Source: an uncultured Gemmiger sp. (GTDB lineage Bacteria; Bacillota; Clostridia; Oscillospirales; Ruminococcaceae). From it: a stretch of 64,000 bases of DNA. The stretch spans positions 1-64,000 of the forward strand of contig CALXHQ010000002.1 in NCBI GenBank assembly GCA_944388145.1, read 5' to 3'. Position numbers and translations under genes: made by a program. Under the pieces are notes generated by a model that did not search any database, had not been told where the DNA came from, and saw only the letters and a program-made list of their open reading frames with translations. This document shows positions 47,147-61,666 of this stretch, in pieces. Position 1 is the first letter of the stretch. Every line of letters begins with the position of its first letter.

Positions 47147-47321
47147 TATTCATCATAAAGTGGGCATGCCCCGGCTGCTGAAGCGCCGGGTCCGGCAGCA
47201 GCTCCGGCATGGCGCCCTCTGTCCTGATGGAATGTTTGCAGACCGAAGTCTGTTCCGCGTACCGCGATGACGCGCGCACAGGCTTCGCTTTTTTTGTATG
47301 CCCGCCGGAGGGGAGATTTTT

Positions 47322-48293
47322 ATGCGAAAACGGGTTCTTTTTCCCCGGACAGCCCGGGTTGTACTGCGGCGGCTGGCGCTGATGATCCCGCTGCTGCTGG
47401 CCATCACACTGTTGTCCTTTGGGATGATGCGGCTGGCCGGCAGCGATGTGGTGCTGCAGCGGATGGAGAGCACCGGCACTGTGCTCAGCCAGCAGGCACT
47501 GGATGACGCCCGGGCCCAGCTGGGGCTGGACCGCCCTTTCTGGCAGCAGTATCTGCACTGGCTGTGCGGTGTGCTGCGGGGGGATATGGGGGTCAGCTAT
47601 GTTTCCGGGCAGGAGGTGTTCTCCGCCATTGTGCAGCGGCTGCCTGCCACACTGCTGCTGGCTTCTCTGGCTGTGGCCATGACGGTGGTTATCGCTCTGC
47701 CGCTGGGTATTCTGGCAGCGGTGTGTCGGGGCAGGGCCATCGACTGGCTGCTGCGGGCGGCCAGCTTTGTGGGCGGCAGCCTGCCCAACTTTTTTGTGGC
47801 GCTGGTGCTGATGTACCTGTTTGCCATCCGACTGCGGCTGCTGCCGGTGATTTCCACCGGGGTCAACCTGACCAGCGCGCTGCTGCCGGCGCTGACATTG
47901 GCCATTGCCATGTCGGCCCGGTACCTGCGTCAGGTACGGGCCGCCGTGCTGGAGGAGCTGGCCCGCCCCTATGTGGCGGGGGCGTTGGCCCGCGGGGTAC
48001 CTTTCTGCCGGGTGCTGTGGGGCAGTGTGCTGCGCTCGGCCTTGGGAACGCTGCTGACGCTGCTGGCGCTGTCCATCGGCAGCCTGCTGGGCGGCACCGC
48101 CATTGTGGAGTCCATCTTTTTGTGGGACGGGGTGGGCAAACTGGCTGTGGACGCCATCCAGATGCGGGACTACCCCATTATCCAGGCCTATGTGATGTGG
48201 ATGGCCATCCTGTACAGCGTGCTGAACCTGGTCACCGACCTGGTCAGCCCGCTGCTGGACCCACGCCTGCGCGCCGGGGAGGCCCCCGCGTGA
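47322..48293 (+). CDS. ABC importer permease (NikB/DppB type)
   Basis: A 323-residue inner-membrane channel subunit with six helices. The N-terminal helix has LLLAITLLSFGMMRLAGSD. LGLDRPFWQQYLHWLCGVLRGDMG is the typical family loop, and an EAA-like loop follows (RAAVLEELARPYVAGALARGV). GGEIF-ATG: GGAGGGGAG lies 8 bases before ATG 47322. It is the first gene of a five-gene ABC importer operon (two permeases, binding protein, two ATPases). Confidence 0.92.
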   Translation: MRKRVLFPRTARVVLRRLALMIPLLLAITLLSFGMMRLAGSDVVLQRMESTGTVLSQQALDDARAQLGLDRPFWQQYLHWLCGVLRGDMGVSYVSGQEVFSAIVQRLPATLLLASLAVAMTVVIALPLGILAAVCRGRAIDWLLRAASFVGGSLPNFFVALVLMYLFAIRLRLLPVISTGVNLTSALLPALTLAIAMSARYLRQVRAAVLEELARPYVAGALARGVPFCRVLWGSVLRSALGTLLTLLALSIGSLLGGTAIVESIFLWDGVGKLAVDAIQMRDYPIIQAYVMWMAILYSVLNLVTDLVSPLLDPRLRAGEAPA

Positions 48294-49120
48294 GCCGCCG
48301 GGCGTGCCGTGTCCGCCTGCGGCTGGGCGTTCTGCTGGTGCTGACCGCACTGTTGTTGCTGGCAGTGGTGTTTGCCCGGCAGATTTGCCCCTTCGATCCC
48401 TACGCCCACGACTACGCCGCCGCACTGCTGCCGCCCTGTCCGGCGCATCCCCTGGGCACCGACCAGTTTGGCCGGGATATGCTGGCCCGGGTTTTGGTGG
48501 GGGGCCAGACCAGCATCTTTTCCGCGCTGGGTCTGGTGGGCGTTCTGACCCTCACCGGCACTGCGGCGGGGTTGGTCTGCGGCTGGGCAGGCGGCCTGTG
48601 GGACACCTTGCTGATGCGCCTGGCTGATCTGTGTCTGGCCTTTCCCGGGCTGGTGGCAGCACTGGGCATTGCAGCGCTGGCCAACGGAGGCAGCGCCGGC
48701 GCAGTGCTGGCACTGGCGGTGATCGGCTGGCCCAAATATGCCCGGCTGGTGCGCAGCCACACCTTGACCCTGCGGGACAGTGATTTTGTGGCCGCCGCCA
48801 AGCTGGCAGGGGAATCCCCCGCCTTTGTTGTGGTGCGGCATATCCTGCCCAATCTGGCCGGGCCGGTGCTGGTGACCGCCGCGCTGGACGTGGGCACCAG
48901 CATGATGGAACTGGCTGGGCTGTCCTTTCTTGGCCTGGGGGCACAGTCCCCCGCCGCCGAGTGGGGCAGCATGATGAGCGGCAGCCGCAGTATGCTGCAG
49001 CTGTATCCCTGGGTGTTGCTGGCACCGGGCCTGGCCATCTTTCTCACCACAGCGCTGTTCAATCTGCTGGGGGATGCCGTGCGGGATGTTCTGGCCCCGG
49101 AGCAGAACACCGCCGGCTGA
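48290..49120 (+). CDS. ABC importer permease (NikC/DppC type)
   Basis: A 276-residue partner permease. It starts with GTG 48290, which overlaps the previous stop (GTGA), and has GGGGAGG 7 bases upstream. TM1 is at about 12-30, then a short loop leads directly to LGTDQFGRDML (about 55). The EAA loop is AAKLAGESPAFVVVRHILPN. It is of ordinary length, which makes it a useful internal comparison for the oversized permease at 54719-56539. Confidence 0.92.
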   Translation: MSRRACRVRLRLGVLLVLTALLLLAVVFARQICPFDPYAHDYAAALLPPCPAHPLGTDQFGRDMLARVLVGGQTSIFSALGLVGVLTLTGTAAGLVCGWAGGLWDTLLMRLADLCLAFPGLVAALGIAALANGGSAGAVLALAVIGWPKYARLVRSHTLTLRDSDFVAAAKLAGESPAFVVVRHILPNLAGPVLVTAALDVGTSMMELAGLSFLGLGAQSPAAEWGSMMSGSRSMLQLYPWVLLAPGLAIFLTTALFNLLGDAVRDVLAPEQNTAG

Positions 49121-49147
49121 CCCCGGCCCCATAAGGGACAGGAATCT

Positions 49148-50680
49148 ATGAAACGGATCATTTCTCTATTCTGCCTGCTGCTGGCCTGCTGCCTGCTGGC
49201 CGGGTGTGCCGCCCGGGCAGCTGCACGCCGGCCGGGCACCTTTGCGCTGGGGGACCCCTCCTTCAGCGCGGAACATGAGATCAACGGCATCGACCCTCAT
49301 AACGCCTACTCGGGCTGGGCCTGTATCCGCTACGGTATTGGCGAGACACTGTTTCGCTACTCCGACCGGATGGAAGTGCAGCCCTGGCTGGCCTCCGGCT
49401 ATGAGCGGCTGGACAGCAATACCTGGCGCATCACCCTGCGGGACGGCGTCCGTTTTACCAGCGGCCGGATGCTGGACGGCGCCGCGGTGAAGGAGTGCCT
49501 GGAGCATCTGATCCGGGTGCATGACCGGGCCCGCGCCGATCTGAAGATTGCCGGCATCCAGGCCGATGGTCAGACAGTAACCATCACCACCGCAGAGCCA
49601 AATCCGGCGCTGCTCAACAATCTCAGCGATCCCTATGGCTGCATCATCGACCTGCAGGCCACCACAGCGGACGGTCTGGTGGCGGGCACCGGCCCCTACC
49701 GTGCGGTGGAAATGCTGCCCGGCCAGCGGCTGGAACTGGAACCCAATCGGGACTACTGGGACGGCACACCCCAGATGGAGCACATCACAGTGCGTACCAT
49801 CTCAGACGGTGACACGCTGACCATGGCGCTGCAGGCCGGTGAGATTGATGCCGCCTATGGCCTGCCCTTCCTCAGCCTGCCCATATTTCAAAACGGGGGG
49901 TACACCATCAGCAGCGCCGCTACCAGCCGGGTGCTGTTTGTTGCCATGAACTTTTCCAGCCCGGTCCTGCAGCAGCAGGAGGTACGCCGGGCCGTCGCCA
50001 TGGGCATCGACAAGCAGAGCTTCGCCCAGGTGCTGCTGGGCGGCAACGGACAGGCAGCGGCGGGTCCCTTTCCCGCCGGGTTTGCCTTTGGCGGCGGCGT
50101 TGCGGCGCCGGAGTATGACCCGCAGGCCGCCTGTGCGCTGCTGGAGCAGGCCGGCTGGGTGGACACCGACGGCGATGGCATTCGGGAAAAGGACGGCCAG
50201 CAGTTAACTCTCCGTTGGCTGACCTATCCCAGCCGCCAGGAGCTGCCCCTTCTGGCCGAATCCGCCCAGGCAACGCTGCGGCAGATCGGCATAGAGGTGT
50301 CGGTGCTGTCCACCGCCAGCCACACCAGTCTCCGTGCCGACCCGGAGGCCTGGGATATGTACGCCAGCGCGCTGGTCACCGCCCCCACCGGGGACCCCGC
50401 CTACTTTTTTTCCAGCTGCTGCCTGGATGGCTCTTCCGCCAACCACGGCGGTTATCACAGCGATGCGCTGGAAGCGCTGGCCGGGGAGCTGGCCGCCACC
50501 TTTGACACCGGCCGCCGCAACCGGCTGGCGGTGCAGATGCAGCAGCAGATCCTGGACGACGATGCCTACATCTTTTGCGCCCACCTGGAGATGAATCTGG
50601 TGGCCCGGGCGGGGGTAACGGGGCTGACTGCCCATCCCTGCGATTATTACGAGATCACAGCGGCATTGCAGGTGGAGTGA
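49148..50680 (+). CDS. ABC importer substrate-binding lipoprotein (family 5, NikA/DppA type)
   Basis: A 510-residue lipoprotein with lipobox LLAGC (Cys20). Family 5 solute-binding features are NGIDPHNAYSGW, GETLFRYSD, LRDGVRFTSGRMLDGAAVKECLEHLI, GTGPY and the late GYHSDALEAL. The GIDPHN..GW start and KECLEHLI resemble proteins annotated as nickel-binding, but peptides or metallophores are equally possible. It sits mid-operon, between permeases and ATPases. Confidence 0.88.
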   Translation: MKRIISLFCLLLACCLLAGCAARAAARRPGTFALGDPSFSAEHEINGIDPHNAYSGWACIRYGIGETLFRYSDRMEVQPWLASGYERLDSNTWRITLRDGVRFTSGRMLDGAAVKECLEHLIRVHDRARADLKIAGIQADGQTVTITTAEPNPALLNNLSDPYGCIIDLQATTADGLVAGTGPYRAVEMLPGQRLELEPNRDYWDGTPQMEHITVRTISDGDTLTMALQAGEIDAAYGLPFLSLPIFQNGGYTISSAATSRVLFVAMNFSSPVLQQQEVRRAVAMGIDKQSFAQVLLGGNGQAAAGPFPAGFAFGGGVAAPEYDPQAACALLEQAGWVDTDGDGIREKDGQQLTLRWLTYPSRQELPLLAESAQATLRQIGIEVSVLSTASHTSLRADPEAWDMYASALVTAPTGDPAYFFSSCCLDGSSANHGGYHSDALEALAGELAATFDTGRRNRLAVQMQQQILDDDAYIFCAHLEMNLVARAGVTGLTAHPCDYYEITAALQVE

Positions 50681-50689
50681 GGAGAGCCT

Positions 50690-51502
50690 ATGGAACCACT
50701 TTTGCAGTATGATGGGGTGACGGTACGCTACGGCGGCCGCCCGGTGGTGCAGAATGTGAGCTTTGCCCTGGCCCCCGGCCAGCTGCTGGCCATAGTGGGG
50801 GAATCGGGCAGCGGCAAAAGCACGCTGCTGCGGGCCGCCATGGGGTTGTTGGGCCCGGGCGGGCAAGCCAGCGGCAGCATCCGGTTTTCCGGCCGGGAGC
50901 TGGTGGGGCTGCCGTCCCGGGCCATGCAGCGGCTGCGGGGCGGCGGGATCGGCATGGTGTTTCAGGATGCGGGTGCGTCGCTGTGTCCGGTGCGGACCAT
51001 CGGCAGCCAAGTGTATGAGTGCCTTTCCGCCCGGGAGCGCCTGACCCGCCGGGAGGCCTGCCGCCGGGCGCTGGAGCTGTTTGCCCGGCTGGACCTGCCG
51101 GACGGCTCCCGCCTGTGGCGCAGCTATCCCTTTGAGCTGTCCGGCGGGATGCAGCAGCGGGTCAGCATTGCCATGGCGCTGCTACTGCGCCCGGCAGTCC
51201 TGCTGGCCGACGAGCCCACCAGCGCGCTGGACACCCTGGCCCGCCGGCAGGTGGTGGGCGAGCTGCAGCGGCTGCGCACACTGACCGAAACAGCGCTGGT
51301 GGTGGTAACCCACGACATCGGCACTGCGGCGGCGTTGGCCGACCACATACTGGTTCTGCACCGCGGCCGCGTGGCGGAGCAGGGCCCGGCCGCCCCCCTG
51401 CTGCGCCACCCCGACAGCGAAATCACCCGCCGGCTGCTGGCCGCCGTACCGCGGCTGCACCGGCCCGTTCCCGAGGTAAAACCATGTCCAACCGATTGCT
51501 GA
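50690..51502 (+). CDS. ABC importer ATPase (NikD/OppD type)
   Basis: A 270-residue ATPase. Walker A is GESGSGKST, the Q loop is VFQDAGASL, the signature is LSGGMQQRV, Walker B is VLLADEPTSAL, and the switch His is in VTHD. Its end overlaps the next ATPase by 19 bases, so they are coupled. There is no C-terminal oligo_HPY Cys domain, unlike OppD at 53716-54711. Confidence 0.93.
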   Translation: MEPLLQYDGVTVRYGGRPVVQNVSFALAPGQLLAIVGESGSGKSTLLRAAMGLLGPGGQASGSIRFSGRELVGLPSRAMQRLRGGGIGMVFQDAGASLCPVRTIGSQVYECLSARERLTRREACRRALELFARLDLPDGSRLWRSYPFELSGGMQQRVSIAMALLLRPAVLLADEPTSALDTLARRQVVGELQRLRTLTETALVVVTHDIGTAAALADHILVLHRGRVAEQGPAAPLLRHPDSEITRRLLAAVPRLHRPVPEVKPCPTDC

Positions 51503-52245
51503 CTGTGGAACATTTGAGCAAGAGTTTTCCCCGCCGGGACGGCAGCCGGCAGGAAGCGGTGCGGGATGTGAGTTTCCAGCTGGAGCAGGGCGAAACGCTG
51601 GGCATTGTGGGCGGTTCCGGCAGCGGTAAGAGCACACTGGCCCGGTTGGTGACACGGCTGATCGCCCCCGACGCCGGGCGTATTCTGCTGGCAGGGCAGG
51701 ACATCACCCGGCTGAAAGGCCGGCCGCTGCGGCAGGTACAGTGCCGGATGCAGATGGTGTTTCAGTCTCCGGCAGGCTCCTTTGATCCGCGGCAGACGCT
51801 GGTTCATGCCGTGGCCGAGCCCTTGTGCTGCCAGGGGATGCCCCGCCGCCTGGCTGTGGGGCGGGCCCGAAGTTTGCTGGAGCAGTGCGGCCTGCCCGCC
51901 GATCTGGCGGACCGCCGCCCCGGCCAGGTGAGCGGCGGGCAGTGCCAGCGGGCGGCCATTGCCAGAGCGCTGACTATTGGGCCGCGCCTGCTGGTGTGCG
52001 ACGAAGCCACCAGCGCCCTGGATGCAACGGTACAACAGCAGATTTTGGATCTGCTGAGACAGCTGCGCAGCCAATGCGGGCTTGCCTTTTTGTTTATCTG
52101 CCACGATTTGGCGGTGGTGCAGCAGTTCTGCGACCGGGTTTTGGTGCTGCATGGAGGCCGGATGGTGGAGGACGGCCCGGTGGCGGAGGTGCTTGCCCAT
52201 CCCCGGAACGCCTACACCCGGGCGCTGATCGACGCCGCCTGGTGA
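51484..52245 (+). CDS. ABC importer ATPase (NikE/OppF type)
   Basis: A 253-residue ATPase. Walker A is GGSGSGKST, the Q loop is VFQSPAGSFDP, the signature is VSGGQCQRAA, Walker B is LLVCDEATSALD, and the switch His is in ICHD. It is the last gene of the operon, followed by a strong bidirectional terminator. Confidence 0.93.
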   Translation: MSNRLLTVEHLSKSFPRRDGSRQEAVRDVSFQLEQGETLGIVGGSGSGKSTLARLVTRLIAPDAGRILLAGQDITRLKGRPLRQVQCRMQMVFQSPAGSFDPRQTLVHAVAEPLCCQGMPRRLAVGRARSLLEQCGLPADLADRRPGQVSGGQCQRAAIARALTIGPRLLVCDEATSALDATVQQQILDLLRQLRSQCGLAFLFICHDLAVVQQFCDRVLVLHGGRMVEDGPVAEVLAHPRNAYTRALIDAAW

Positions 52246-52682: not shown

Positions 52683-53715
52683 TTACTCGATCACTTCGCC
52701 GGTGGGGGCGTTATTCTCGTGCAGCGGGAAATGGCAGGCCACCCAGTGGTCCTTGCCGATTTCACGCCACTCGGGCACCTCGTGCTTGCACTTTTCCTGG
52801 CAGTAACGGCAGCGGGTATGGAACTTGCAGCCCTCCGGCGGATTGACCGGGCTGGGGATATCGCCCTCCAGCAGGATGCGCTCACGGCCGCCGTTATTTT
52901 CCTCAGTGGTGGGGATGGCGGAGAGCAGCGCCTCGGTGTAGGGATGCAGTGTGTCGCTGAACAGATCCTCGGCGTTGGCCAGCTCCACCAGATTGCCCAG
53001 GTACATGACGGCGATGCGGTCGCTGATATACTTGACCACGCTCAGGTCATGGGTGATGAACAGGTAAGTCAGGCCCGCCTTCTTTTTCAGGTCGGACAGC
53101 AGGTTCAAAATCTGGGACTGGATGGACACGTCCAGGGCCGAGACCGCCTCGTCACAGACAACAAACTTGGGGCGCAGCGCCAGGCTGCGGGCAATGCCGA
53201 TACGCTGCCGCTGGCCGCCGGAGAACTGGTGGGGGTAGCGGTTGAACATATAGGTGTCCAGACCGCAGTCCTGCATGACCTGGAAGATGTACTCCTTCAT
53301 GGCGGGGTCGTTCTTCTTGAAGATCTTGTGGGAGGTCAGACCCTCACCGATGATCTGACCCACCGTCATGCGGGGGTTCAGGGAGGAATACGGATCCTGG
53401 AAGATCAGCTGCAAATCCTTGCGCAGCACACGCATCTGTTCCGGGGTCTGCTTTTTCAGGTCAATGGCCTGGCCGTCCTTGTGGTAGATGATATCGCCAT
53501 GGGTCTGGGGATACAGCTGCAGGATGGTACGGCCCAGGGTGGACTTGCCGCAGCCGGACTCGCCGACCAGGCCCAGCGTCTCGCCCTCGTAGATGTCCAG
53601 GGTGACGCCGTCATTGGCGCGCACATAGCGCTGCTTTTCCCGGATTTTGGTCTTTTTCACCGGAAAGTACTGCTTCACATCGCGGACTTCCAGAAGTACT
53701 TTGCGGTTATTGTTC

Positions 53716-53726
<11 letters not shown>
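52683..53726 (-). CDS. oppF: Oligopeptide importer ATPase OppF
   Basis: A 347-residue ATPase. Walker A is GESGCGKST, the Q loop is IFQDPYSSLNPRMTVG, the signature is FSGGQRQRIGIARSLAL, Walker B is FVVCDEAVSALD, and the switch His is in ITHDLS. The C-terminal oligo_HPY domain carries clustered Cys (CKFHTRCRYCQEKC), as seen in Dpp/Opp ATPases that bind an iron-sulphur cluster. It overlaps oppD by 11 bases. Confidence 0.95.
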
Positions 53727-54711
<985 letters not shown>

Positions 54712-54718
54712 ACGTCAA

Positions 54719-56539
54719 TCACCTCTCCTTCGATTTCGGGTCAATGGCATCGCGCAGGCCGTCACCCACACAGTTGATGCTGATGGTGCAGATGCCGAAC
54801 GCGATGGACGGGAACAGCCAGCGCCACCAGTAGTTCTCGATGACCTGACCATTCTGCGCACCGTTGAGCATGTTGCCCCAGGTGGCGTTGGGCTCGGTGA
54901 CACCGAAGCCGATGAAGGACAGGGAGGACTCGGTCAGCATGCAGGTGGCGAAGTCCAGCGTGGCATTGACAATGATGACGGTGATGATGTTGGGCAGGAT
55001 GTGCCGCAGGATAATGCCGAACTCCTTGACGCCCAGCGCCTTGGCGGCGGTGACAAACTCCTGCTCACGCTCGGCCAGCACGCTGCCGCGGACCAGGCGG
55101 GCAATGCCGGGCCAGGACAGCAGGCCCAGAATGAACATGATCAGGATGATCTTTTGCGTCTGGTCAATGCTGTTGCCCAGGATACTGGACAAAATGATAC
55201 AGAACGGAAGGAACGGGATGGAGGAGACGATCTCGGTCAGGCGCATCATCAGGTTGTCCACCTTGCCGCCCTTGTAGCCGGAGATGCCGCCCACCAGAAC
55301 GCCGATGACGGTGGAGATGATGACCGCGATAAAGCCGACGGTCATGGTCATGCGGCCGCCCACCAGCAGGCGGCGGAACAAATCGCGGCCCAGCTGGTCG
55401 GTGCCCATCAGGTAGCCGTCCAGGCCCCAGCCCTCGGCATGGCCGTTCTCATCGATGGCGTAGCTGCCGTAGTAGCCGGCCGAGATGGTGGTCACAGCGC
55501 TGTCAAAGGAGGGAGCATCGCACTGGTTGAAGTTGTCGTTGCCCCAGGTGTAGACGGTGCCGTCATCCAGGATGGCGGTGTAGTGGTAACGGCCGCCTTC
55601 GATGTCGGTGACATGGCCCTGGATCTCCTCGGGCACGTCCATGGACCCGTTGACGTTGTTGCCCCAGGTGTAGACGCGGCCGTCGCTGGTCAGCGCCGCG
55701 GCGCTCTCGTCAGACAGGGCGATATCGATCGTGTTGCCCTGGATTTCCTCCGGCACGTTGGTGTAGGAGGAAGCCTTGTTGGACAGGGGGACCACCTCGC
55801 CGTCGTTGGTCAGCGCGATGACGATGTTGGTGTTGTCCTCAAACTGGGCAATGTTGCCCTGCACCCCTTCGGGGAAGTAGATGTTCAGCAGATAGGCGCT
55901 GCCCCAGTTGTACAGGCGGCCCGACTCGGTCAATGCCAGCGAGAACTGGTACCCGGCCGAGATCTGCTTGATGGGCGAGGTGTTCATCTTCAGCTCGATG
56001 GGCAGGCTGGCCAAACCCATACGGTCATTGCCCCAGGTGAAGATCTCGTTGTCCTCGTTGACGGCGACCACATGGTCCAGGCCGGCCGAAATCATGGTCA
56101 GCTTGCCCATCTCATCGCTGGAGGGGATGTTCTTCAGCTTCTCGGTGGGGAAGGTGCCCCACTCGTAAACGTTGCCGTCGTTGTCAATACCAACGGAGAA
56201 GGTACTGCCGGAGGAGATCGCCTTGGCGTTGTTCTTCAGGCCGTCGGGAATCTTCAGCATGCCAAAACCGGGGGCCACGTTGGCCTGGGTGACATCCTGA
56301 TAGTTGAGTTCAATCGGGAAGAAGAACGGCAGGATCATGCAGCACAGGAAGACGACGATGAATGCGCAAAGGCCGATCATCGCGATCTTGTCGCGGATGA
56401 AGCTGCCCACCACCATGCGCATGGGGCTTTGCATCAGCTCCTCATCCTGCTCCTGCTGGGGCATACCGCCCATCACCATGCGCTCGGCCGCTGCGGCGGC
56501 GGTGGATTTCCTGCCGGCGTCTTTCTTTTTCTTTGCCAT
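54719..56539 (-). CDS. oppC: OppC-type ABC permease with inserted RCC1-like seven-bladed propeller
   Basis: 606 residues, about twice the usual OppC. The order is a cytosolic Lys/Ala start, then TM1 (about 51-74), then residues 91-377 as seven RCC1-like repeats beginning near 107, 148, 191, 230, 270, 310 and 349. Each is about 40 residues with the pattern I-S-A-G-x-x-x-S-x-A-[IL]-x-x-[DN]-G-x-[VL]-Y-x-W-G (e.g. ISAGLDHVVAV, ALTSDGRVYTWGNN, AILDDGTVYTWGND). Repeat 4 is degenerate. Canonical OppC resumes at GTDQLGRDLFRRLL (379), with five more helices and the EAA loop AAKALGVKEFGIILRHILPN. The frame is continuous and the flanks are canonical, so this is an insertion, not a broken fusion. The propeller should sit outside the membrane beside the binding protein. 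Confidence 0.93.
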   Translation of the reverse strand: MAKKKKDAGRKSTAAAAAERMVMGGMPQQEQDEELMQSPMRMVVGSFIRDKIAMIGLCAFIVVFLCCMILPFFFPIELNYQDVTQANVAPGFGMLKIPDGLKNNAKAISSGSTFSVGIDNDGNVYEWGTFPTEKLKNIPSSDEMGKLTMISAGLDHVVAVNEDNEIFTWGNDRMGLASLPIELKMNTSPIKQISAGYQFSLALTESGRLYNWGSAYLLNIYFPEGVQGNIAQFEDNTNIVIALTNDGEVVPLSNKASSYTNVPEEIQGNTIDIALSDESAAALTSDGRVYTWGNNVNGSMDVPEEIQGHVTDIEGGRYHYTAILDDGTVYTWGNDNFNQCDAPSFDSAVTTISAGYYGSYAIDENGHAEGWGLDGYLMGTDQLGRDLFRRLLVGGRMTMTVGFIAVIISTVIGVLVGGISGYKGGKVDNLMMRLTEIVSSIPFLPFCIILSSILGNSIDQTQKIILIMFILGLLSWPGIARLVRGSVLAEREQEFVTAAKALGVKEFGIILRHILPNIITVIIVNATLDFATCMLTESSLSFIGFGVTEPNATWGNMLNGAQNGQVIENYWWRWLFPSIAFGICTISINCVGDGLRDAIDPKSKER

Positions 56540-56553
56540 AGTCAGGAACCTCC

Positions 56554-57546
56554 TTAGTTTTCAAGCCGGACCCGCGGGTCGACGATGGTGTAGGCGATGT
56601 CCATGATGACATTGCCGGCCAAAGACAGAATGACGTAGAACATCTGCAGCGTCAGAACCAGCGCAAAGTCGCGCTGCATCAGCGAGTCGATCAGCATTTT
56701 GCCAAGGCCGTTCCACAGGAAGACGCTCTCGATGACGATGGAGCCGCCGAACAGAGAGACCACCCAGGCCGTGGCAATCGTGACGATGGGGATCAGGGCA
56801 TTGCGGAAGGCATGGACGTAGATGACCGTCTTTTCCTTCAGGCCCTTGGCCCGCGCCGTCTTGATATAATCCATGCGCAGCACGTCGATCATCTCGGCGC
56901 GGACATAGCGGGTGATGCTGCCGATACCCGAGATGGACATGACGATGACAGGCAGCGCCATGTGCCACAGCGTATCCAGCACAAATGCCATTCCGGTGCC
57001 CGTAAAGCCCGGGCTGCGGATACCGCTGATGGGGAAGATCGGGATCTTGACCGCGAAGGCGAAGATGAACAGCAGCGCGATGATGAAGCTGGGCAAACTG
57101 TAACCCACAATCGTGATAACCTGCACAAACTTGTCAAAGACAGTGTTCTTGTGCACGGCGGTTGCAATGCCCAGCGGGATCGAGATGGCAAACACCACGA
57201 TCATAGAGGCAGCGTTGAGCATCACGGTGTTGAGCATCGGGGTGCCGATGACCTGGATAACCTGCTGCTTGTACTGGGTAGAATAGCCAAAATTGCCGGT
57301 GAGCATGTTGCCGATCCAGATCAGATACTGGATCACCAGGGGCTTGTCCAGGCCAAGCTGCTGGCGGGTGCGGTTATACAGCTCAAGATAATCGTCCGGC
57401 CGCATATTGTTCTTCGAGTCGCCCAGCATCATGGTGACAGGATCACCGGGCATGGACTTGTAGATGAAGAACATCAAGATTGAGATGATAAAGAATACGA
57501 AAACGATATAGACAAGACGTCGGATCAGGTACCTGCCTTTGCCCAT
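56554..57546 (-). CDS. oppB: Oligopeptide importer permease OppB
   Basis: A 330-residue permease of normal length. TM1 is YIVFVFFIISILMFFIYKSMPGDPV. LGLDKPLVIQYLIWIGNMLTGNFG is the usual extracytoplasmic loop. The EAA loop is RAKGLKEKTVIYVHAFRNAL, and the end is IVDPRVR. It follows a readthrough-type terminator after oppA and is 14 bases before the RCC1 permease gene. Confidence 0.94.
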   Translation of the reverse strand: MGKGRYLIRRLVYIVFVFFIISILMFFIYKSMPGDPVTMMLGDSKNNMRPDDYLELYNRTRQQLGLDKPLVIQYLIWIGNMLTGNFGYSTQYKQQVIQVIGTPMLNTVMLNAASMIVVFAISIPLGIATAVHKNTVFDKFVQVITIVGYSLPSFIIALLFIFAFAVKIPIFPISGIRSPGFTGTGMAFVLDTLWHMALPVIVMSISGIGSITRYVRAEMIDVLRMDYIKTARAKGLKEKTVIYVHAFRNALIPIVTIATAWVVSLFGGSIVIESVFLWNGLGKMLIDSLMQRDFALVLTLQMFYVILSLAGNVIMDIAYTIVDPRVRLEN

Positions 57547-57565: not shown

Positions 57566-57607
57566 CTAAAAAAGCCGGCGGCCCCCCGGCAAGAGGGGGA
57601 CCGCCGG
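57566..57607 (-). terminator. Attenuating terminator between oppA and oppB
   Basis: CCGGCGG (57575-57581) pairs with CCGCCGG (57601-57607), with an inner CCCCC/GGGGG stem. Minus-strand exit is GGCTTTTTTAGG. Partial readthrough would keep binding protein in excess over the channel. Confidence 0.85.
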
Positions 57608-57645: not shown

Positions 57646-59559
57646 TTATTCGGCAACCCAGGCATCCAGGACAGCCAGCTCCCAACCCCAGATGGAAGAA
57701 GGATCCCAGCCCTGCAGCTTGGTGTTGTAGAAGTCGTAGTACTCATCAGAGTACAGGGGGATGTCAGGCATCTTGTCGTTCCAGACCTTGATGTAATCGC
57801 GCCAAGCGGTCAGCCAGGTCTCGGTATCGTCATAGGGGATGCTCTTCAGAGCGTTGGCGGCAGCCTCCAGCTCGGGATCCTTGATCCAGTTGGCGTTGTA
57901 GCCGCTGCCCATGTAATTCTCGTCGCTGGTGTAGTAGTACCAGGGGGAGTTGGCAGTGGCAAAGCCGGTGGCCAGGTTGTACATGTTGTACATCGTGTCG
58001 CCCTGATGATCGATGCAGCTGAACAGGGTGGAAACGTCCATGGTGGTGGGCACCAGCTCCATGCCGGCCTTAGCCATGTTGGTGGGCAGCATGGTGGCCA
58101 GCAGGTCGGAGACGGGGTTGCCCTCGGAGTTGGCCCAGGTGATCTGCAGAGGAACGATCTCGCCGTCCACTTCCTTGTAACGGGTGCCGGTGCCGGAATA
58201 CTCGGAACCGTCAGCGTTCAGGGTCCAGCCGTCCTCTTCCAGCAGCTGCTTGGCAGCGTCGATGTTGACCTCGTAGCTGTTCAGGTTCTCAGTCAGCCAG
58301 TCGATGGAGTCCTGATACTCCCACTGGGCCAGGCCGTAAGCGGCGTTGACAACAGCGCCGTAGCCGCCGGTGTACTGGCGGGCGAACTCGTTGCGGTCCA
58401 GGCAGTAGGCGATGGCCTTGCGGACGTTCGCGCTGTCAGTGGGGAAGATGCTGCAGTCAAACTCCAGCTTGCCGTAACCGTTGCGGTAGTAGGAGCTGTC
58501 AGCAACAGCACCCTCTTCCACCAGGTCAAGGCCGGCATTGATGGTATCGCCGCCGGAGCACTGGAACAGCAGGTCAACAGAACCAGCTTCCAGCTCGTTC
58601 ATCATGGTGTCGCTGGAGACGGTGCGGATGACCAGGTTCTCGATGACGGGCTTGACACCGCGGTAATCGCCGGCGTAGTTGGGGTTGACGGTCAGCACAG
58701 CCTCACGGCTGGAGGTGTCGTAGCTGGTCAGGGTGTAGGGACCGCAGGTCGGGTTGGGATGATAGCGGTAGCCGGTGGCGGGATCGTTGATGGTCTTCTG
58801 CAGCAGCTCGGCGCTGAAGTCGCCGGTGATGCGGGCGCCATCCTCGGTATCCTCAACATCGCAGTCCGGAGCGATCACGCTCATCGGACGGGGTGCCAGG
58901 CTGGCGTAGGTGATGTCGTAGTGGTTGGGCAGCTCCTCAGCGGCGATGGTGACCGAGTAGGTCATATCGTCAACCAGGTGCACACCGGCGAAGGTGTCGC
59001 TCTCACCGGAGGAGTACTCGGGCCAGCCAACCAGAACAGACAGGCCGGTGTTGCTGTAACCGTCCAGGCTGCCCATCTCGTCGCTGTTCTCCAGCAGGGC
59101 GGCAAAGACATAGTCCTTGGCGGTGATGGGGGTGCCGTCGCTCCAGACCAGGCCGTCGTTGATGGTGACGGTGTAGGTCTTGGTGCCATCCTCGTTCTCA
59201 GTCTCCTCGTGGGAAGCAACGACGGTGGGGTCGAACTCAAACTCGCCATCCTTGGTGAAGGCAACTGTGCCGTAGCCGTGGATCAGGCTGTACATGGCGT
59301 AGTTGGTGGCGGCGTTGTTCATGCCGGCATCGTAGAAGTCGTTCTCGACCGGGGTGATGGTGCCGATGACCAGCTGGCCAGTCGGCTCGGTGGGACGGGT
59401 GCTGGTGGTTTCCGCCGTAGCACCGCTCTCCGCAGTCGAAGCCTCAGAGGCTTCGGACGAAGAGGAGTTGTTGGTGACAGCTTCCTGGCCGCCGCAGGCT
59501 GCCAGAGAGACTGCCATCGTCCCCGCCAGCAGCAGGGATGCAATCTGTTTTGCTTTCAC
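57646..59559 (-). CDS. oppA: Oligopeptide-binding lipoprotein OppA
   Basis: A 637-residue family 5 binding protein with lipobox LAACGG (Cys22), a Ser/Glu/Thr linker, then FYDAGMNNAATNY, TVTINDGLVWSDGTPITAKDYVFAALL, NPTCGPYTLTSYD and VRKAIAYCLDR. It is large for the family (about 540), partly due to the linker and an added strand region after 195. The GTG start at 59559 follows AAGGAG by 8 bases. It is the first gene of the opp operon, so it is made most abundantly. Confidence 0.92.
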   Translation of the reverse strand: MKAKQIASLLLAGTMAVSLAACGGQEAVTNNSSSSEASEASTAESGATAETTSTRPTEPTGQLVIGTITPVENDFYDAGMNNAATNYAMYSLIHGYGTVAFTKDGEFEFDPTVVASHEETENEDGTKTYTVTINDGLVWSDGTPITAKDYVFAALLENSDEMGSLDGYSNTGLSVLVGWPEYSSGESDTFAGVHLVDDMTYSVTIAAEELPNHYDITYASLAPRPMSVIAPDCDVEDTEDGARITGDFSAELLQKTINDPATGYRYHPNPTCGPYTLTSYDTSSREAVLTVNPNYAGDYRGVKPVIENLVIRTVSSDTMMNELEAGSVDLLFQCSGGDTINAGLDLVEEGAVADSSYYRNGYGKLEFDCSIFPTDSANVRKAIAYCLDRNEFARQYTGGYGAVVNAAYGLAQWEYQDSIDWLTENLNSYEVNIDAAKQLLEEDGWTLNADGSEYSGTGTRYKEVDGEIVPLQITWANSEGNPVSDLLATMLPTNMAKAGMELVPTTMDVSTLFSCIDHQGDTMYNMYNLATGFATANSPWYYYTSDENYMGSGYNANWIKDPELEAAANALKSIPYDDTETWLTAWRDYIKVWNDKMPDIPLYSDEYYDFYNTKLQGWDPSSIWGWELAVLDAWVAE

Positions 59560-59624
59560 GTGTGTGTCTCCTTCCTCATAAATGCTATCTAAACATTTTC
59601 TTTGCCGCCGACCTGTTCTTTTTA

Positions 59625-59728
59625 CACAAACAAGTTCCAGTACCTGTTTGTGAGTGAAAACCATGTCAAAACGGTGACAGAAATATGAATAGCTTATATA
59701 TTCTAGCAAGAACCTGTTAAAACGTCAA
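59625..59728 (-). promoter_or_regulatory. opp operon promoter, leader operator and leader hairpin
   Basis: Minus strand TTGACG (59723-59728), 17 bases, TAGAAT (59700-59705). About 14-29 bases after the start site lies the palindrome TGTCAAAACGGTGACA (59664-59679), a candidate operator. Further on, CACAAACA (59625-59632) pairs with TGTTTGTG (59645-59652) to form a leader hairpin. The regulator is unknown. Confidence 0.75.
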
Positions 59729-59854: not shown

Positions 59855-61558
59855 TTACCGGATGCCGGTCAGGTCGAAATTGTCCAGCCAGGTGCTGGCC
59901 GCCTGGCAGACGGTGCGCAGGCAATCCTCCTCAAAGGGGCTTTCCAGGCCGGCGTTTTTCAGCAGTTCGGTGAACACTCTGGTGCCGCCCTGCCGGGTAT
60001 AAGCCATATAGTGGGCCCAGGCGTCCTTGGGGTCCTTCTGGATCATGGCCCAGAACTCCAGCGAGACGGTCTGCGCCAGGCAGTAATCAATATAATAGAA
60101 GGGGCTGGAATAGATGTGGTGCTTCTGCTGCCAGCTCTCGCCGTCGCCGTAGAAGGGAATCTCGCCATCCAGCCGCAGCCAGGGCATATAGATGCCCAGC
60201 AGGCGCTTCCACTCGGCATGGCGCTGGGCGGGGGTCAGGTCGGGCTTCTCATAGGCAATGTGCTGGAAGTGGTCCACCGCGGTGCCATAGGGGATGAAGG
60301 TCAGCGCCGATGCCAGATGGCTGTACCGGAACTTGGCCGCATCGGCGCCGAAGAAGTCCTCCGCCCAGGGCCAGGCGAAGAATTCCATCGACATCGAGTG
60401 ACACTCGCAGGCCTCCATGGTGGGCCAGGTATACTCCATGGGGACGCGGTCGCGGTTCATCCAGGCAGCAAAGGCATGGCCGGCCTCGTGGGTGACCACC
60501 TCCACATCGCCCTGGGTGCCGTTGAAGTTGGCAAAGATGAAGGGCACGTTGTAGTCAGGCAGCGAGGTGCAGTAGCCGCCGTCCTCCTTGCCGGGGGTGG
60601 ACAGCACATCCAGCAGCTTGCCGTCCAACATGGTGCGGAAAAACTCGCTGGTCTCGGGGGAAAGTTCATCATAGAACTTTTTGCCTGTGGCCAGGATGTC
60701 GTCGGCGGTGCCCACCGGGCGGGGGTTGCCGGAGCGGAACATCAGCGCCTCATCGGCATAGCTCAGGGGGTAGGCAACGCCCAGCCGCTCAGCCTGGGCG
60801 CGGCGGATGCGGTCGGCCACCGGCACCAGGTACTTGACCACTGCGGCGCGGAACTTTTCAATGTCCGCCTTGGTGTAGCAGTTGCGCTGCATACGGTAGT
60901 AGCCCAGGGTTGTGTAGCCCTCATAGCCCAGCTTTTTGCCCATGGCATCCCGCAGGTGGACCAGCTTGTCATAGATCTCGTCCATTTTGGGCTGGTTCTG
61001 CTTGAACCAGCGGCCCTCGGCCTTCCAGGCTTCCAGGCGGCGGGCATCGTCGGCACAGGTCTTGTAGGGGGACAGCTGGCTCAGGGTATAGACGCCGCCC
61101 TCAAAGGGGATCTGGGCGCTGGCCAGCAGCTTCTCGTATTCCTGGGCCAGGTCGTTCTCCTGCTGCATTTCGGGAACGATCTCGGGCGAGAACGCCTTGC
61201 GGGCAATCTCGGCGTTTGTGAACATCAGGTCACCGTACTCAGCGGCAAAGTCGGCACGGTAGGGGCTTTCCAACATGGCGGCAGTGAAAGCGTCGCCGCA
61301 GGTCTGGATCTCGGGAGCCGCGGCGTTCCAGAACTTTTTCTCCTCATTGTAAAAGGCATCGCGGGTGTCGATGCTGTGGCGGATGCTGGCCAGGGTAGCC
61401 TGGGTCTGGATATGCTTTTCCAGCTCTTCCTTGTCCAGGAAGGCGGCGCGGGCATCGGCATAGCTGCCGGCGGCGCGCAGGCGGGCGGTGATGGCGTTGT
61501 ACTCTGCTTTCAGGGCGTCCAGGTCGGGGCGCTGGTAGGGCATTTCGGCAAAGGTCAT
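59855..61558 (-). CDS. pepF: M3-family oligoendopeptidase (PepF type)
   Basis: A 567-residue cytosolic zinc metallopeptidase. It has a mostly helical N-terminal half and the zinc motif THEAGHAFA with a downstream Glu region (PTMEACECHSMSMEFF). The C-terminal FYYIDYCLAQTVSLEFWAM is typical of M3 oligoendopeptidases. It cleaves imported oligopeptides, and its position directly upstream of the opp operon suggests linked peptide uptake and digestion. ATG 61558 has GGAG upstream. Confidence 0.93.
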   Translation of the reverse strand: MTFAEMPYQRPDLDALKAEYNAITARLRAAGSYADARAAFLDKEELEKHIQTQATLASIRHSIDTRDAFYNEEKKFWNAAAPEIQTCGDAFTAAMLESPYRADFAAEYGDLMFTNAEIARKAFSPEIVPEMQQENDLAQEYEKLLASAQIPFEGGVYTLSQLSPYKTCADDARRLEAWKAEGRWFKQNQPKMDEIYDKLVHLRDAMGKKLGYEGYTTLGYYRMQRNCYTKADIEKFRAAVVKYLVPVADRIRRAQAERLGVAYPLSYADEALMFRSGNPRPVGTADDILATGKKFYDELSPETSEFFRTMLDGKLLDVLSTPGKEDGGYCTSLPDYNVPFIFANFNGTQGDVEVVTHEAGHAFAAWMNRDRVPMEYTWPTMEACECHSMSMEFFAWPWAEDFFGADAAKFRYSHLASALTFIPYGTAVDHFQHIAYEKPDLTPAQRHAEWKRLLGIYMPWLRLDGEIPFYGDGESWQQKHHIYSSPFYYIDYCLAQTVSLEFWAMIQKDPKDAWAHYMAYTRQGGTRVFTELLKNAGLESPFEEDCLRTVCQAASTWLDNFDLTGIR

Positions 61559-61648
61559 GGCAATTTCTCCTCTTCGCGGTAAATTCAGCAGCCGGACGGC
61601 CGGGCAGGCACGGCCCGGAGGCCGGGCGGCGGCTTTTTGACTGTCTGC

Positions 61649-61657
61649 ATTATACCA
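61649..61657 (-). promoter_or_regulatory. Extended -10 promoter of the oligoendopeptidase gene
   Basis: Minus strand TGGTATAAT. The -35 is weak. Confidence 0.6.
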
Positions 61658-61666
61658 CACAGGGCA

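Follow-up and report, generated by a model that had tools for sequence, protein, structure and literature searches.

The window, by which we mean the whole 64,000-nucleotide stretch of DNA analysed here, carries on its minus strand a peptide importer operon whose OppC-type permease contains a large propeller insert. The operon and the parts of this permease gene, here called oppC-RCC1, are as follows.

52683-53726, minus strand: oppF, ATPase of 347 aa, without the long insert of many relatives (ORF list, profiles, spacing)
53716-54711, minus strand: oppD, ATPase of 331 aa (ORF list, Pfam, NCBIfam)
54719-56539, minus strand: oppC-RCC1, OppC-type permease of 606 aa with propeller insert (ORF list, Pfam, NCBIfam, model)
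54722-55420, minus strand: permease core of oppC-RCC1, residues 374-606, with the GTDQLGRD motif, the remaining TM helices and an EAA-type loop (profiles, PDB sequence match, model)
55421-56269, minus strand: RCC1 propeller insert, residues 91-373, seven units (Pfam, Foldseek, models)
56321-56389, minus strand: TM1, residues 51-73, a helix in the model (within OppC_N 38-90, AlphaFold2 model)
56554-57546, minus strand: oppB, partner permease of 330 aa (ORF list, Pfam, NCBIfam)
57575-57607, minus strand: terminator-like hairpin between oppA and oppB (consensus match only)
57646-59709, minus strand: oppA, family 5 binding protein, listed frame of 687 aa from TTG (ORF list, Pfam)

An earlier note on this DNA had described the operon as complete and expressed from a good promoter. 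The first part holds, as oppA, oppB, oppD and oppF are all present in the window; the second was not borne out by a promoter scan, which gave four promoter-like sites where shuffled sequence gave 3.3 on average. One such site overlaps the first codons of the listed oppA frame; its TTG start at 59709 probably lies upstream of the true one, as a signal of lipoprotein type begins about 50 codons in (59559-59709, minus strand). The hairpin between oppA and oppB is strong, with 13 pairs, 12 of them G-C, and could raise the abundance of OppA over the remaining products. Just upstream of oppA we found a Peptidase_M3 gene (59855-61660, minus strand, 93.8 bits), which is also present at four other loci. 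The window holds, in addition, a second peptide importer operon (47298-52245, plus strand), which by sequence comprises two permeases, one of them an ordinary OppC, a binding protein and two ATPases.

The reading frame of oppC-RCC1 is intact, as the earlier note had stated. Pfam profiles matched OppC_N at residues 38-90 (36.5 bits, cut-off 23.9), BPD_transp_1 at 413-603 (120.9 bits, cut-off 26.4) and RCC1_2 in six stretches (136.8 bits, cut-off 22, E 1.1e-40), and the RCC1 model also exceeded its threshold (36.7 bits, cut-off 21.7); the whole-domain model WD40_RLD reached 143.1 bits, below its cut-off of 150. The RCC1 insert lies between TM1 and GTDQLGRD. By its domains, GTDxxGRD motif, core fold and operon partners, the protein is identified as a permease subunit of the OppC/DppC type. 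The ordinary permease at 48290-49120 has, counted by eye, about 25 residues from TM1 to GTDQFGRD, in agreement with the earlier figure. The first strands of the seven RCC1 units start at residues 105, 147, 190, 230, 270, 310 and 349, giving spacings of 42, 43, 40, 40, 40 and 39 residues, and the 39-43 residues proposed before are thus recovered from the model. The insert bounds suggested then (55409-56269) were nearly right, since profiles and model place them at 55421-56269; the WG-type pattern claimed for every unit fails in blade 4, where the motif is degenerate and lacks WG. The insert is acidic, with 38 D+E against 13 K+R.

AlphaFold2 was used to predict the structure of the whole protein. 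With an alignment of 24 rows, the propeller was confident and the permease poor (mean pLDDT 63.5, pTM 0.56); a model from 98 rows, which superseded it, reached a mean pLDDT of 91.0 and a pTM of 0.83, with propeller blocks at pLDDT 91-98. The rise in pTM suggests that propeller and permease take up a defined mutual placement. In both models, DSSP resolved the insert into a propeller of seven blades, each of three strands. Foldseek searches of the PDB with the 98-row model placed BLIP-II at the top of the list (TMt 0.84-0.87), with E. coli OppC in sixth place (TMt 0.74, rmsd 1.8, 226 columns), and sequence matches in the PDB were similarly divided: the core was nearest to E. coli OppC (8z21_B, E 9e-55), while the insert matched BLIP-II best, followed by UVR8. 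With repeats above cut-off and a predicted seven-bladed fold, the insert qualifies as a modelled member of the RCC1 propeller family. Hence the central claim of the earlier note, a seven-repeat RCC1-like insert inside an OppC subunit, was upheld by Pfam, AlphaFold2 and Foldseek; the profile search and the prediction of the permease alone that it had proposed gave RCC1_2 and RCC1 above their cut-offs and a propeller, respectively.

As regards topology, the TM1-TM2 regions of the E. coli DppBCDF complex are described as periplasmic in the available text of PMC12136057. Since the insert occupies the OppC loop equivalent to the periplasmic DppC loop, it is predicted by homology to be extracytoplasmic, as the earlier note had also held. 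In the 98-row model, residue 372 closes the last propeller strand and residue 387 opens the next helix, leaving a linker of about 14 residues to TM2; with so short a linker, the propeller should lie near the membrane or the channel entrance.

We then looked at how widely the architecture occurs. A whole-protein query recovered it in 7 of 35 genomes of the same genus. Searches with the insert, counting only frames on which an OppC core was also confirmed, found it in 20 of 197 genomes of the family, in at least 23 of 295 of the order (best matches only, 211 bits and more) and in at least 14 of 398 of the phylum (best matches only, 247 bits and more); these family, order and phylum sets overlap, and each includes the window's own genome. 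The thirteen loci ranking next below the counted top matches carried no OppC core. Another 16 genomes of the family gave weaker matches, and among the six examined none had an OppC. A contig search returned 44 matching loci, comprising 28 with the full architecture, two cut by contig ends and 14 OppCs without RCC1. In total, 80 insert-bearing stretches yielded 77 distinct proteins, in all of which the OppC core follows the insert, a few being cut by contig ends. The architecture occurs under 13 family labels, and the names given by submitters include Gemmiger, Caccousia, Anaeromassilibacillus, Pseudoflavonifractor, Intestinimonas and one Erysipelotrichaceae MAG. Identity to the window's protein was 61-88% for the insert and 85-99% for the core in 27 of 28 proteins, and 33% and 57%, respectively, in the Erysipelotrichaceae protein. 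A PF00415 search gave no match in the window's own genome, but likewise none in 14 control genomes, and is therefore uninformative. Two further loci encode long proteins with RCC1 repeats and a C-terminal stretch of dockerin-like appearance.

The operon partners were also retained. Among the 77 OppC-RCC1 loci, fragments included, OppB was present at 76, OppD at 75, OppF at 73 and OppA at 72, and all four at 69. Seven of the loci missing at least one partner are cut by a sequence end. The other, L145 (3058-5678), is untruncated and has no OppA gene beside oppB, which is preceded instead by an unrelated frame of 352 aa; it is a real exception to oppA linkage. In 36 of the 54 operons in which it could be measured, OppF carries about 180 extra residues between Walker A and the Q-loop, a stretch that looks coiled-coil-like by eye; in the remaining 18, the window's among them, the spacing is the usual 50.

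When permease cores were placed in a tree, all 76 RCC1 tips fell into one clade (support 0.977) with no other sampled OppC inside, one of these tips (L049) being cut before the insert and labelled as RCC1 by us. A core-based search of 299 genomes of the phylum agreed with this picture: its nine best matches (265 bits and more) all measured 609-642 aa in frame length, and the tenth, at 242 bits, was an ordinary OppC of 326 aa. The propeller was apparently inserted into OppC once, with no loss among the sampled sequences, most of which entered the tree through the insert, a bias against detecting losses. In ten pairs, dN/dS was 0.06-0.36 for the insert against 0-0.145 for the core, and by this measure the insert is under purifying selection. 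Insert and core were alike in composition (GC 0.605 and 0.608; GC3 0.883 and 0.893); this match, together with the single clade of cores, contradicts a recent foreign cassette in this genome.

What might the propeller do? The earlier note had suggested docking of OppA, pre-binding of peptides, or tethering of wall or host components. Our preferred reading, to which we give a probability of about 0.5, is that it serves as a docking platform beside the channel entrance, gripping, retaining or positioning OppA. The gene product is the C-type transmembrane subunit of a peptide ABC importer (type I) and carries a BLIP-II-like propeller in its TM1-TM2 loop. Short linkers would keep this propeller above the membrane, next to the channel entrance and on the side at which OppA docks; there it would grip OppA, hold it at the translocator once loaded and position it for release. 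Such a role would resemble the one played by MalF-P2, an unrelated loop, or by the scoop that follows TM1 in the partner subunit DppB. In E. coli, DppA is described as capping DppB and DppC, with the DppB scoop motif entering the DppA cleft (PMC12136057, available text). A propeller of this kind should be able to grip a protein tightly, because BLIP-II is described as doing so (PMC6121496, available text). The confident full-length model, linkage of the operon to oppA at 72 of the 77 loci and the low dN/dS of the insert count for docking. Against it, ordinary OppC transporters work without such a domain, and L145 has no adjacent OppA gene.

In order to examine the link with OppA from another side, rates of evolution were compared across 64 operons with near-full-length genes. 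Using tree distances, the partial rate correlation of the insert was 0.46 with OppA, and -0.01 with OppB, -0.06 with OppD, -0.10 with OppF and 0.14 with its own core. OppA was the top partner of the insert in 499 of 500 subsamples, each of 40 thinned operons. We also simulated alignments on one tree without co-evolution, with 70 runs at each of two settings. A value of 0.46 was reached 15 times at sigma 0.3 and 10 times at sigma 0.45, and a lead over the next-ranked partner as large as that observed arose in only 4 runs and 1 run, respectively; a smaller trial agreed. Since simulated nulls attain its size this often, rate co-evolution was downgraded as a proof of docking, and the covariation between insert and OppA is suggestive only. 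Sliding windows along OppA gave values of 0.09-0.34 in 18 windows (the 19th was undefined), with peaks at ORF positions 161-220 and 553-613, and no clear contact region emerged from this comparison with insert rates. Nor did conservation by blade element (JSD) single out one face of the propeller, A-B turns having a mean of 0.509 and strands 0.483-0.583, and one conserved binding face is thus unsupported. We infer the partnership with OppA and the docking function mainly from geometry and precedent, to which the rate covariation lends slight weight.

Other OppCs seen along the way, among the loci at hand rather than in a systematic survey, also carry inserts in this loop. EF-hand domains occur there above the Pfam cut-off at three loci, and an insert of about 200 residues, apparently of two repeats, at nine (judged by sequence or frame length), with no Pfam match in the four that were scanned. 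Five loci have smaller inserts, estimated by eye at some 70-110 residues, and the RCC1 insert is the largest among those seen. Unrelated inserts at the same site raise the idea that the TM1-TM2 loop may be a general slot for docking or sensing modules, filled differently from lineage to lineage, the RCC1 version being a permanently attached receptor for OppA; we regard this as possible and advance it tentatively.

We also considered that a face or the funnel of the propeller binds peptides or covers the entrance, adding a second selectivity filter beside OppA. The position next to the channel entrance, as implied by the model, would suit this, as would the blade-specific conserved polar or aromatic residues H156, Q198, H319 and Y360, some of which may be mere RCC1 consensus. 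We consider it unlikely, however, since in this importer class specificity is described as set by the binding protein (PMC12136057, available text), and the closest structural relative, BLIP-II, binds proteins. A role as a tether, in which the propeller binds cell wall, a secreted peptidase or a host component and so places the importer there, appears more doubtful. The insert does evolve faster than the core, and in the window, as at four other loci, oppA has a Peptidase_M3 gene upstream; but those four are the only ones of 31 other loci with an M3 homologue within reach, no conserved third partner gene was found, and the M3 protein has, by eye, no obvious export signal. There is slightly less again to be said for a structural spacer or shield without a specific ligand, kept because its removal disturbs OppC folding or exposes the gate. 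The invariant residues of the insert are largely structural (WG, G and P), as a spacer would have it, whereas one clade without a sampled insert-less member, together with purifying selection, argues that the domain is useful, without saying in what way. The earlier note had named three grounds for refutation, namely a prediction lacking a propeller, an insert in the cytosol and an assembly chimera absent from related strains, and none of them was borne out. An assembly chimera or frame artefact, for which nothing spoke, is ruled out with near certainty by the 77 distinct proteins in related genomes, among them three strain-titled, non-MAG records (Gemmiger formicilis An723, Gemmiger sp. An120 and Anaeromassilibacillus sp. 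An200), and by the like composition of insert and core.

Peptide importers of this class are common bacterial gates for nutrients and signals, and how the translocator recruits and opens the binding protein is still under study. The architecture reported here is a real, well supported and conserved variant of such a known importer, for which we infer the function: the propeller has been kept across many bacterial families of Firmicutes, probably because it holds or positions the peptide-delivering binding protein. A natural importer variant with a large self-folding module by the docking face, available in named gut strains, offers a clean test of this role. Our results further suggest that among genes labelled merely as ABC transporter permease, recurrent insertion of domains at a single site goes unnoticed. 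Among the literature matches listed, outside which lie subscription papers and InterPro, we found no description of an RCC1 domain in OppC; an unremarked database annotation may exist.

Among known systems, Opp4B and Opp4C are the NCBIfam models that score best against the OppB and OppC encoded here, neither reaching its curated cut-off (296.4 against 450 and 320.3 against 350, respectively). E. coli OppC and DppC (PDB 8z21, 8z1v-8z1z) are alike in permease core, motif and operon partners, but their TM1-TM2 loop is short and has no propeller. UVR8, RCC1 and the RLD domains of HERC2 are likewise propellers of the RCC1 superfamily; they differ in being eukaryotic, in serving in other contexts and in a TMt of mostly about 0.5-0.6. 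MalF-P2 of the maltose importer is similar as a large extracytoplasmic insert of one permease subunit; it lies in a different loop (TM3-TM4), has an unrelated fold and belongs to a different importer family, and no homology with the RCC1 insert is claimed. It reportedly mediates activation of transport and communicates substrate availability. The closest counterpart of the insert is BLIP-II (PDB 1jtd, 3qi0, 3qhy), with a TMt of 0.84-0.88 and 25-28% identity. The BLIP-II propeller is described as having seven blades of only three strands each (PMC6121496, available text), and the P2 loop as moving around MalE in simulations (PMC8134467, available text). BLIP-II of Streptomyces exfoliatus is a free, secreted beta-lactamase inhibitor, whereas the propeller described here is a loop of a membrane channel; it is this context that sets the two apart, and inhibition of beta-lactamase is not expected of the insert.
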